From positions 1 through 22,236 of IMG/VR virus record IMGVR_UViG_3300034019_000215: a stretch of 22,236 nucleotides of DNA, one strand, 5' to 3'. The position numbers were made by a program, and so were the translations under genes. Positions 8,318-11,529 of this stretch are shown here, one piece after another (positions within the stretch are counted from its first letter, which is position 1; every line of letters starts with the position of its first letter). The notes beneath the pieces are model-generated. The model saw nothing but the letters and a program-made list of their open reading frames with translations, made no database searches and was not told where the DNA came from. Source of the DNA: a virus.

Positions 8318-8503
8318 TTATTTAACTTGTGATTCGTCTTTTTGTAACACATAGGCATAAGCCTGAGCCAGCATCTGAGTGTGCCTTCTGACGTTGAAGA
8401 TGTCGTTGAATACGATGTTGACTCTTTTGCCTGTCTTGTCTTTGATAAATTGCTCTACTACCCTAATCATTTTAGGCAGCTCATCGGATGTTGTATTGTC
8501 CAT
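8318..8503 (-). CDS. Small phage protein after the large terminase
   Basis: A 61-residue protein, MDNTTSDELPKMIRVVEQFI at the start, with VNIVFNDIFNVRRHTQMLAQ near 28-47 and AYAYVLQKDESQVK at the end. It looks like a short helix, a strand, then a long helix, with no membrane segment or metal-binding pattern. The start overlaps the terminase end by 23 nt and the stop lies 2 nt before the next gene, which supports real coding. I do not recognise the family beyond an impression of similar small proteins next to terminases in Bacteroidetes phages. Confidence 0.65.
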   Translation of the reverse strand: MDNTTSDELPKMIRVVEQFIKDKTGKRVNIVFNDIFNVRRHTQMLAQAYAYVLQKDESQVK

Positions 8504-9641
8504 AGTTAGATTTTAGTCCGAGTGCTTCCATCTCGTGGTATCGTAAAGCATCAATAGCGTGATTGTAGTGGTCTATCGGTCTTCTCATACGTTGACCTTG
8601 CTTGTCAGTATCCCAACAATATGAGCGGAGTTCTTTGATGAGGTTCGTGCTTTGCTTGGTTACTAAGTAATCTTGTCTTTGCATTACGTCTATGCCGTAG
8701 TTGATTGAGTCAGCTCCTTTCGTTACTCCTTTGATTGTTTTGCCTTGACGTCTTATCTCCTCTATTGATTTAGGTTCTGAGCTATCTGCGTAAATAATAA
8801 CTCCTGACGGAAGTATCTTAGCTATGTCGGAGTTAACCATTCCTGTTCGGTAAACAAGTTCGTTTACTATCCGTGTTCCGTTATAATTGTAAATCTCAAT
8901 TGCTGCCGTAGGGTCATTCGTGTATCCAAAGTCAAGTCCTATTCCTATCAGCTTTGCTTCTTTGGGTATTGTGTCGATTTCTTTCCAGTTGTTAAATACC
9001 ACTCCTTCAAGACTACCTACTTGACCTAAGCCATACACTCGCCACCAATTAGCCCAATAAGAACTCGTAGCTGCTTTGTCACGATTCTTTTCAATTTGTG
9101 TGACAATACTTTCGTCTAAAGCCTCGTTATCTTTGTAGGTTAAGATTATAAAGTCCGTGTCAGGTTCGTCTTTTAGTTCCTTGTGTACCCAAAACTCATT
9201 GGCAGGGTTAAAGTCCAAGTAAACCTCTTGCTTTGTACGTATTGAAAGCTCATTGTATGACTCAAAGGTTACGTTGTTGCACTCGTTAATGTACAAGATG
9301 TCACGTCTTGCACCTCTGAGTTTAGAAGCATCATCTGCTGAAAAGAACTCTACTACGCTTCCGTTTTTAAAATGATATGTAAGCAGCGACTTATTTAACT
9401 GTTGGTCATAAAATCGGTTAGTCCACTTTAGTATTTTGACAAAGTCTTTTAATGCTCCCCTTCTTAGATGAGGTATACTTTCTGCTACTATGCTTATTTC
9501 GAGTCCGTCTTTACGTAGTGCCTTGTCAATTAACACAGCAAGGATTGAGTACGTTTTTGAAGCCGACGTTCCACCTTGAACAATCTTAATACGCTTTTTT
9601 AAAGCAAGTACCTTATTCGTTGCCGTTGTCCTCTTGTACAT
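8481..9641 (-). CDS. terL: Terminase large subunit
   Basis: A 386-residue packaging ATPase and nuclease. The N-terminal motor shows a deviant Walker A (GGTSASKT, 23-30), a Walker B with catalytic carboxylate (ILYINE, 115-120, E120) and the coupling segment YLDFNPANEFWVH (141-153). The C-terminal RNase H-fold nuclease has acidic residues in GLDFGYTNDP (D237), IIYADSSEP (D286) and DHYNHAIDALRY (D364 in the last motif). The protein drives genome packaging into the prohead through the portal and cuts the DNA. The start overlaps the small-subunit gene by 29 nt. The length is within the usual range for compact terminases of this type and nothing appears missing. Confidence 0.95.
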   Translation of the reverse strand: MYKRTTATNKVLALKKRIKIVQGGTSASKTYSILAVLIDKALRKDGLEISIVAESIPHLRRGALKDFVKILKWTNRFYDQQLNKSLLTYHFKNGSVVEFFSADDASKLRGARRDILYINECNNVTFESYNELSIRTKQEVYLDFNPANEFWVHKELKDEPDTDFIILTYKDNEALDESIVTQIEKNRDKAATSSYWANWWRVYGLGQVGSLEGVVFNNWKEIDTIPKEAKLIGIGLDFGYTNDPTAAIEIYNYNGTRIVNELVYRTGMVNSDIAKILPSGVIIYADSSEPKSIEEIRRQGKTIKGVTKGADSINYGIDVMQRQDYLVTKQSTNLIKELRSYCWDTDKQGQRMRRPIDHYNHAIDALRYHEMEALGLKSNYGQYNIR

Positions 9642-9945
9642 CAGGGAAAAGTGGTAACTCGGTTATTGTTTGCTCTACTTGCTGTAGCGGTGCGCCATAG
9701 CCTGAATCCATCAATGCTTTGTAAGCCGTTACATCGCCTTCACGTGCCTTTTTAATCAACGCTAACGTCATCAAATCCTCTTGGCTCATAGTTTCCTGCT
9801 CGCCTGTTAATGGGTTCTTTAGCGATTGATTTACTTCTAACCATTGACGTGCTATTGTGCTTCGGTTCTTTGCGCCTTTAGGTCTTCCGTTTGGGTTTCT
9901 TACCTCACCTTTTTTAGCAGGTATTAAGTTTTCTTCGTTTGCCAT
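9613..9945 (-). CDS. terS: Terminase small subunit-like protein (DUF5681-type N terminus)
   Basis: A 110-residue protein. The N terminus carries KKGEVRNPNGRPKGAKNRST, the basic motif of DUF5681-type phage proteins, followed by a helical region and an acidic tail (FPDVQEDNGNE). Its place directly before the large terminase, overlapping by 29 nt, supports a role in DNA recognition for packaging. The basic Gly-rich motif could contact DNA. No classic winged HTH is obvious, so the call rests on the motif plus position. The 19-nt gap to the ABC/GNAT gene upstream shows no promoter. Confidence 0.75.
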   Translation of the reverse strand: MANEENLIPAKKGEVRNPNGRPKGAKNRSTIARQWLEVNQSLKNPLTGEQETMSQEDLMTLALIKKAREGDVTAYKALMDSGYGAPLQQVEQTITELPLFPDVQEDNGNE

Positions 9946-9964: not shown

Positions 9965-11029
9965 TTATTTTAATTCAAATGATGCAGTTATTCTATTCTT
10001 TGAAGTAGTTCCTTCTAAAACACCTTTTTTTGCTTCTGATACTCTACCATATCTAACGCAATCCCATTGCTTTGATTTTTTTAATGCAAATATTAAACTT
10101 GGTGCAGAAGTCATTATATTAAATCTTTGTTGTTCTTGTTTATATAATTTTCCAATTTCATTTAATAATTTTAATCCAATGCCAGCACCTTGATAATCTG
10201 GCAATATAACCAATCTATGTACTTTCTTCATATTCTTTACCTTTGGGTGCGGAAAGTGAAGTATGCTTATAAATCCTGCTATCTCATCGTTTACTGTTGC
10301 TATAAATACATTTGCAGCGTTGTTATGCGAATGGCTTAAATAGTGGTGCTTAGCAAACATTTTCCAGATGCTTTTATCTCCGTAATTGAATATTTCAAAT
10401 TTGATATCTGGTCTATTTTTTTTTTGCCCTTCAAAACTTTGAAAGGTCATCGTATCGGTGTTAAATACCCAATCAGGCATTAGCCAATCTTGTACGTCAA
10501 AGTGACAAGTAACTGCTATAAACTTTTTATCCGTTTTTCTAATTGCTTTCTGCATAGCAAATGAACCTATTTGTGCAACGTTTCTATCTACAACGCTTGT
10601 AAACTCATCAAATACAAAAAACTTCTGCTCTTCTAAAATTGCACGTGCTAAGTCAACACGCATCTTTTGTCCATTACTTAAAACTGAGTAAGGTTTTAAC
10701 CAACTTGGTGGACTTGAAAACCCTACTGAATTAAATGCAGATGTTATTTCTTCTACACTACATTCTTTTGGCATATCATCTAATACAGTTTCTTTCGTGT
10801 ATTCATAGGATGTTATGTAAGCATCTTTAAATAATTGTTTAGCTATTGTAGTTTTTCCTGTTCCGCTTTTTCCTACAATTAAACCTACTTGCCATTGTTC
10901 AGGAATGTTTATGTCTCCCTTAAAGTGTTCTACAATGTTTTCTGATTGTAAATCAAACTTACCAATAACCGAAGCAACTCTAAAAGTTTTACTTGGTTTG
11001 GATTCTTTTATAATGTCAAAAGTCGGCAT
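9965..11029 (-). CDS. ABC-ATPase fused to a GNAT acetyltransferase domain
   Basis: A 354-residue two-domain protein. Residues 1-200 are a complete ABC ATPase: Walker A GKSGTGKTT (53-61), signature LSNGQ (117-121), Walker B FVFDEF with E142, D-loop SVVD, and H-loop His176. Residues about 207-354 are a GNAT domain with an acetyl-CoA loop (LPDYQGAGIG, 275-284) and a distinctive FAKHHYLSHS motif (226-235). It has no membrane segments, so it is not a transporter subunit on its own. The HHYL motif recalls Mom-like GNATs that modify adenine in phage DNA, which is inference. It overlaps the ParB-like gene by 22 nt and precedes the terminase. The GNAT half is unusually AT-rich (15 G/C in each of the two 60-nt lines 10081-10140 and 10141-10200). 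Other substrates, protein or small molecule, remain possible. Confidence 0.85.
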   Translation of the reverse strand: MPTFDIIKESKPSKTFRVASVIGKFDLQSENIVEHFKGDINIPEQWQVGLIVGKSGTGKTTIAKQLFKDAYITSYEYTKETVLDDMPKECSVEEITSAFNSVGFSSPPSWLKPYSVLSNGQKMRVDLARAILEEQKFFVFDEFTSVVDRNVAQIGSFAMQKAIRKTDKKFIAVTCHFDVQDWLMPDWVFNTDTMTFQSFEGQKKNRPDIKFEIFNYGDKSIWKMFAKHHYLSHSHNNAANVFIATVNDEIAGFISILHFPHPKVKNMKKVHRLVILPDYQGAGIGLKLLNEIGKLYKQEQQRFNIMTSAPSLIFALKKSKQWDCVRYGRVSEAKKGVLEGTTSKNRITASFELK

Positions 11030-11529
11030 TCGTAACCCTCCTCAATTAATTTGTTATAAGTATTTTCTTGGTGTTCCTCATCCTTACAAATAACTTCAAT
11101 ACGATAAAGATTATCAATAGTGCTGCTTAAATCTTTTAGCTCTAAATCTTCATCCGCACCTAAAATAATAGGCAAATCTAAACCCCAATCCTGTATCTTT
11201 TCAGTATCCCATTCGTTAGCTAACATATCCCAATCCCATTCTCCAAAACCTACGTTGTCTTTTACTATGAATTCGTCTTTTTGCAGCTCGGTTAAACCTT
11301 CAGCCTTGACAATATACACTTCTTTCATACCTGCTTCCTTACACGCTTTTAAACGCATATTGCCGCCAAGCACGATGTTGTTCTCATCTACTACGATAGG
11401 TCGTAGCTCCAGCATTTGAGGAAACTCCTGTATTGACTTGACTAACTTTTTAAACTTATCGTCTTTGATTAGACGTGGATTCTTTGGGTTCGTCTTTACT
11501 TCGCTGATTTTAACTTTATCTACCTTCAT
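11008..11529 (-). CDS. ParB-like nuclease-domain protein
   Basis: A 173-residue protein with a ParB/sulfiredoxin-fold domain: VKISEVKTNPKNPRLI (6-21), then LVKSIQEFP (29-37), LRPIVVDENNIVLGGNMRLK (42-61, the GGNxR form of the ParB box) and ACKEAGMKEVYIV. The C-terminal 40 residues form a small extra domain (YRIEVICKDEEHQ onward) seen on phage-type ParB proteins. It lacks the central HTH of chromosomal ParB, so it is not a partition protein. In phages such proteins usually accompany a DNA methyltransferase; here the partner is the ABC/GNAT fusion, which it overlaps by 22 nt. The domain can bind a nucleotide and sometimes cuts DNA; which applies here is unknown. Confidence 0.85.
   Translation of the reverse strand: MKVDKVKISEVKTNPKNPRLIKDDKFKKLVKSIQEFPQMLELRPIVVDENNIVLGGNMRLKACKEAGMKEVYIVKAEGLTELQKDEFIVKDNVGFGEWDWDMLANEWDTEKIQDWGLDLPIILGADEDLELKDLSSTIDNLYRIEVICKDEEHQENTYNKLIEEGYECRLLTL

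Follow-up and report, generated by a model that had tools for sequence, protein, structure and literature searches.

A viral ParB-like protein and its ABC ATPase-GNAT partner as a predicted DNA-modification cassette

Gene layout and the ABC ATPase domain

The window analyzed here is the whole stretch of 22,236 bases of a virus record from IMG/VR. Its minus strand carries a ParB-like gene of 173 amino acids (11008..11529) and its partner, a gene of 354 amino acids (9965..11029) in which an ABC ATPase is fused to a GNAT domain. Both open reading frames were present with the expected lengths and overlap by 22 nt (11008..11029), as the initial annotation had described; the overlap probably reflects translational coupling of the two genes. 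The cassette had also been placed directly before the terminase. This is not the case, as a gene of 110 amino acids with a DUF5681 match (9613..9945, minus strand; PF18932, E 1.4e-10) intervenes. It is probably a packaging gene and was treated as context outside the enzyme, as was the gene for the terminase large subunit at 8481..9641 on the same strand (PF04466, E 1.4e-15; PF17288, E 9e-15).

The ABC-GNAT protein matched PHROG 11143 over its whole length (E 1.8e-98). Homologues were found in 81 phage records, with hosts including Oenococcus, Lactococcus, Gordonia, Pasteurella, Leptospira, Porphyromonas and Aeromonas. Close relatives in IMG/VR were under purifying selection, with dN well below dS (e.g. 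dN 0.035 and dS 0.57). The whole-length match, the homologues in phage records and the low dN indicate that the cassette is more than a chance arrangement. In the passage of Iyer 2021 that treats such proteins (PMC7824862), which cites Iyer 2013, an ABC-coupled GNAT is predicted to perform an acyl modification, itself uncharacterised, of a DNA base, and QAX98348.1 is the published exemplar. This protein of Aeromonas phage AsFcp_2 was recovered among the homologues of the window protein (H27; 34% identity over 88%, E 9e-49). Judged by sequence, the window cassette is a member of this published, predicted ABC ATPase-GNAT DNA-modification family. The same passage (PMC7824862), Iyer 2013 aside, mentions neither ParB and its C-terminal domain nor natural fusions or donor genes. 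The leads added here are computed associations; they concern a putative docking domain of ParB, the fusions and the donor genes.

The ABC ATPase domain comprises residues 1-205 (10415..11029, minus strand) and was identified by Pfam ABC_tran (E 2.7e-10, above the gathering cut-off) and by the fold of a natural ParB-ABC-GNAT fusion. All four motifs of a complete ABC ATPase are intact, as the initial annotation had read them, and were invariant or nearly so in an alignment of 12 diverse phage homologues. On the minus strand, these are the Walker A motif GKSGTGKT (residues 53-60, 10850..10873; G53, S55, G56, G58 and K59 invariant), the signature LSNGQ (117-121, 10667..10681; conserved in phage homologues), the Walker B motif ending in D141 and the catalytic E142 (10604..10624; invariant) and the H-loop His176 (10502..10504; invariant). 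The domain had further been proposed to act as an SMC/MutS-like clamp, for which no support was obtained. Only 56 residues separate the end of Walker A (T60) from the signature (L117), with no long coiled-coil insert, and this spacing leaves no place for SMC-type arms, in contrast to the long insert of SMC and Rad50 clamps. In the fold search with the natural fusion, the best matches of the ABC domain were nucleotide-binding domains of the transporter type, e.g. MJ0796 and FtsE. ATP-driven dimerisation of the ABC domains around DNA is nevertheless possible.

Three other assignments of the ATPase were considered and rejected. A transporter role, as implied by the phage annotation "iron siderophore transporter", would call for a permease, and no transmembrane permease partner was annotated in the ABC-GNAT neighbourhoods viewed, where the recurrent neighbours were ParB, terminase and other phage genes. 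ABC-F ribosome protection, an NCBIfam suggestion, scored far below the cut-offs among the matches listed. The match to the PADLOC defence family mad3 is limited to roughly 50 residues of the ATPase.

Linkage of ParB-like genes to ABC-GNAT

The survey of relatives covered 479 loci in 110 clusters at 60% protein identity; the loci were gathered by similarity searches that started from the ABC-GNAT family, and the cluster counts do not represent an unbiased sample. Of the 361 viral loci with room for one, 265 (41 of 63 clusters) had a ParB-like gene immediately upstream of ABC-GNAT on the same strand; among the loci from bacterial genomes, 63 of 76 had one. The overlap of 22 nt seen in the window recurred exactly in 211 loci (24 cluster representatives); 36 loci had one of 4 nt. 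A single open reading frame spans ParB with its C-terminal domain, ABC and GNAT in three loci, two from bacterial genomes and one from a virus (L217, L171 and L291). One subclade, which includes T4-like phages, has neither ParB nor the C-terminal domain. A conserved link with ParB, whose absence the initial annotation would have taken as a refutation, is borne out by this survey. A terminase gene was found downstream in 195 of the 243 ParB-positive viral loci with room. The suggestion that DNA is marked before it is packaged agrees with this position, which the cassette has in most relatives, but T4-like and Mu-like phages carry it elsewhere and the argument is one of position only.

The ParB-like protein of the window has two parts. 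Its N-terminal domain (residues 1-125, limits approximate; 11155..11529, minus strand) is the one common to ParB-methyltransferase fusions. The protein matched ParB_N (PF02195) with an E value of 1.5e-6 and 28.6 bits, compared with a gathering cut-off of 26.3, and PHROG 498 (DNA methyltransferase, N-terminal part) with an E value of 5e-28. The second part, at about residues 139-173 (11011..11115, minus strand), ends in YRIEVICKDEEHQENTYNKLIEEGYECRLLTL and occurs beside or fused to ABC-GNAT in relatives. ParBs linked to ABC-GNAT end in this conserved domain of approximately 45 residues. Open reading frames with the domain lay directly upstream of ABC-GNAT, or were fused to it, at 357 loci representing 79 of the 110 clusters. 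Only 17 of 375 were scored elsewhere in the collected loci, most of them ParB reading frames that overlap ABC-GNAT or lie somewhat further upstream of it. In Mu-like phages of Pseudomonas and Porphyromonas, the C-terminal domain is kept alone in a tiny upstream gene. Among the relatives of the window, its identity was 0.66, compared with 0.47-0.54 for the rest of the ParB. From this we infer a putative docking piece for ABC-GNAT. The model of a natural ParB-ABC-GNAT fusion reached a pTM of 0.61, and the docking reading does not rest on it. Alignments of fusions with ParB-only rows were dropped, as one (A6) put the ParBs on the ABC domain and another (A7), judging by its low identities, did likewise.

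Several loci showed further variation. In one Porphyromonas phage (L017, 4870-4998), a protein of 42 amino acids labelled "acr candidate" matches the C-terminal domain (E 3e-6) and overlaps ABC-GNAT, so the label is probably wrong. Two loci (L020 and L021) are nearly identical to window positions 9965-11529 in ABC-GNAT (dS 0.005) and differ in the adjacent ParB gene (dS 0.25), a contrast that points to recombination between the two genes. In phages of lactic acid bacteria and streptococci, ABC and GNAT are encoded by separate adjoining genes, and fusion of the two is therefore optional. Three loci that are 84-90% identical to the window (L140, L141 and L143) have ABC and GNAT split at an identical point with an overlap of 23 nt; the shared split point suggests gene fission or frameshifting and not a chance error.

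Kinship of the GNAT domain and signs pointing to DNA

The GNAT acyltransferase domain comprises residues 207-354 (9968..10411, minus strand). Pfam GNAT families matched the fusion with E 1e-8, above their gathering cut-offs, the AlphaFold2 model of the domain has a pLDDT of 91, and the fold search agreed. The HHYL motif reported by the initial annotation is present at residues 228-231 (10337..10348, minus strand) and conserved. In 98 aligned GNAT sequences, Y230 and R272 were invariant and H229 was conserved in at least 90%, as was L231. The acyl-CoA-binding motif QGAGIG (residues 280-285; 10175..10192, minus strand) has Q280, G281 and G283 conserved in at least 90%.

The domain had been likened to Mom of phage Mu, which also belongs to the GNAT superfamily, and comparison of the predicted structure with Mom had been suggested. 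The outcome places the GNAT nearer to protein acetyltransferases. The window GNAT had no match to the Pfam Mom family PF25680 at E values up to 1, while Mu Mom matches it at 2.4e-75, and profile comparison gave a probability of 75% for RimI and 5% for Mom. Neither test supports membership of the Mom family. The closest among the folds listed was IAA acetyltransferase (Z 14.6, rmsd 3.2 over 136 residues), followed by RimI (Z 14.3, rmsd 2.9 over 130 residues) and Naa50 (Z 14.1, rmsd 2.9 over 136 residues); these three are tied, and the ranking of GNAT folds is no predictor of substrate. The Mom structure 8bv8, which is in the PDB, was outside the 50 fold matches listed, which is no proof of difference. 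An unforced profile alignment of GNAT and Mom matches a conserved His-Tyr pair and a conserved Arg of one family to those of the other; the pair falls in the HHYL motif and corresponds to His58-Tyr59 of Mom. Because the Arg is found in TmcA too, only the His-Tyr pair is telling for a likeness to Mom. The aligned Mom sequences lack the Q/RxxGxG acyl-CoA motif that the window GNAT keeps, and no ABC partner was seen beside the Mom genes viewed, in contrast to the fusion studied here. The N-terminal acetyltransferases RimI, Naa50 and Ard1 are among the best-ranking solved folds, but they are stand-alone or ribosome-linked protein enzymes, unlike the ABC-fused GNAT. RimI lacks HHYL and has Asn where the ABC-GNAT family has Arg272.

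The genomic setting points to DNA. Many of the listed phage relatives of the window ParB are named methylases. Lactobacillus phage T280 encodes an annotated DNA modification methylase whose N terminus is the ParB domain; its gene immediately precedes the terminase, and a gene with an ASCH domain is close by. In P335-like and related phages, ParB-ABC-GNAT occupies the slot of the T280 methylase, with an ASCH gene adjoining in related phages. The ParB-DNA methyltransferase fusions of PHROG 498 share the ParB N-terminal domain and, in T280, the position; they differ in that their enzyme is a methyltransferase, whereas here it is ABC-GNAT and the ParB has an extra C-terminal domain. Two Mu-like phages have ABC-GNAT behind the tail genes, a similarly late place close to that of mom in Mu. 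One Enterococcus phage has a Mom-like gene after its DNA polymerase gene; in Enterococcus phage 9184, that place is taken by ABC and GNAT as separate genes. One Mom gene also has a ParB partner: in Microbacterium phage Appa (L512, 2469-3621), a ParB-like gene with a CxxC-type tail overlaps the Mom gene by 8 nt. DNA modification is supported as the most likely role, as predicted. Of the initial reading, this role and the ParB link are supported, and the specifically Mom-like GNAT and the SMC/MutS-like clamp are not.

Predicted acylation reaction, donor genes and alternatives

To our knowledge, no member of the ABC-GNAT family has been assayed and no modified base is known from a carrier phage. 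Full-text literature searches, with Iyer 2013 outside their scope, yielded no experimental work on the family. The reading we favor, with somewhat better than even confidence, is that of a ParB-guided, ATP-dependent DNA acyltransferase that would mark phage DNA. The ParB-like protein would bind or slide on phage DNA, and its C-terminal domain would hold ABC-GNAT. ATP probably pairs the ABC domains, as it does in other enzymes of this type, and they may grip or distort the DNA and license the reaction. The GNAT would then move an acyl group from acyl-CoA to a base, at an exocyclic amine, and this mark may shield phage DNA from restriction. No accessory donor gene adjoins the window cassette, so its donor is probably the acyl-CoA pool of the host, with acetyl-CoA as the simplest candidate. 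The family has been a predicted DNA-modifying one since 2013; the ParB partner, the C-terminal domain, the fusions and the donor genes make a concrete system of it, in which partners can be named and masses predicted. If the reading is true, ATP-gated, ParB-guided acylation joins the ways in which phages hide their DNA from restriction. Cultured carriers include Lactococcus phage P335 and the Gordonia phages Jace and Axumite.

Relatives in six clusters have an aspartate decarboxylase gene, a CoA-transferase-III-like gene or both near ABC-GNAT and often abutting it (e.g. L287, 878-4138; L006, 4447-7212; L205, 1-2576). The decarboxylase of phage Jace matched its Pfam family with E 2e-33. One viral lineage has ParB followed by ABC-GNAT, decarboxylase, CoA-transferase and a further ABC-GNAT; in the first part of this series, genes overlap by 4 nt. 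The CoA-transferase-III-like gene was found in no other phage among 50,697 records. On the tree, the trait changed at least three times (the starred branches force three), with gain and loss indistinguishable. It is possible that these genes form a dedicated acyl-CoA supply. The CoA-transferase-like proteins have about 225 amino acids, compared with a Pfam profile length of 366, and some score below the Pfam cut-off, which makes their activity uncertain. In one clade, a formyltransferase-like gene (PF00551) lies downstream of ABC-GNAT, often directly, at 56 loci in 10 clusters (e.g. L007, 1805-2452; L013, 6107-6724; L017, 6125-6598). In some Gordonia phage records it is labelled as a tRNA-methyltransferase.

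Together, the three accessory genes suggest that some variants use an aminoacyl-type donor, for example beta-alanyl-CoA. A more specific proposal, which we put forward tentatively and regard as more doubtful than DNA acylation in general, is that ParB-ABC-GNAT cassettes place an aminoacyl-type mark on phage DNA. Some variants would make their own donor, with the decarboxylase and the CoA-transferase-like protein yielding beta-alanyl-CoA (predicted mass shift +71.04 Da) and the formyltransferase-like protein capping the amine (a further +28.00 Da), while ParB would choose or feed the DNA and ATP binding would gate the reaction. If true, this would add a new class to the known DNA modifications.

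Acylation of proteins is the strongest alternative, although we consider it unlikely. ParB and ABC would bring the GNAT to targets on DNA, and it would acetylate host RNA polymerase, ribosomal proteins or packaging proteins of the phage, in the manner of phiKMV Rac. The nearest folds and profiles, those of RimI, Naa50 and Ard1 and not of Mom, are consistent with it, and, according to the passage cited above (PMC7824862), there are known phage GNATs with RNA polymerase as their substrate. The tied fold scores are silent on the substrate, however, the ParB partner has the domain found with DNA methyltransferases and with one Mom gene, and decarboxylase and CoA-transferase donor genes would be odd for simple protein acetylation.

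Improbable is a machine for segregation or packaging, in which an ABC clamp would be loaded by ParB onto the phage DNA close to packaging, under regulation by the GNAT. The pairing of ParB with an ABC protein recalls ParB-SMC, and the terminase lies downstream in most ParB-positive viral loci. Against this, the ABC domain has a transporter-type fold and no coiled-coil arms, the GNAT motifs are conserved as in a working enzyme, and the position of the cassette varies in Mu-like and T4-like phages. Least probable of all is acylation of tRNA or another RNA base by a TmcA-like NTPase-GNAT enzyme: TmcA, the tRNA(Met) cytidine acetyltransferase, acetylates the exocyclic amine of a base using ATP, likewise joins a P-loop NTPase and a GNAT with an Arg before the acyl-CoA strand in one chain, and was matched by the natural fusion in Foldseek (2zpa; rank 16, 407 alignment columns), but this structural match is weak, as is the profile similarity (probability 6.5%), and its NTPase is of the helicase type, its substrate is RNA and it has no ParB, whereas the ABC-type cassette has a ParB partner that points to DNA.

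A more distant arrangement was seen in SSU5-type phage-plasmids (L018, 3596-6740), which encode two ParB-like genes, an ABC gene and an "ABC transporter" gene that matches GNAT weakly. ABC genes related to the one in these phage-plasmids occur in approximately 890 plasmid records.
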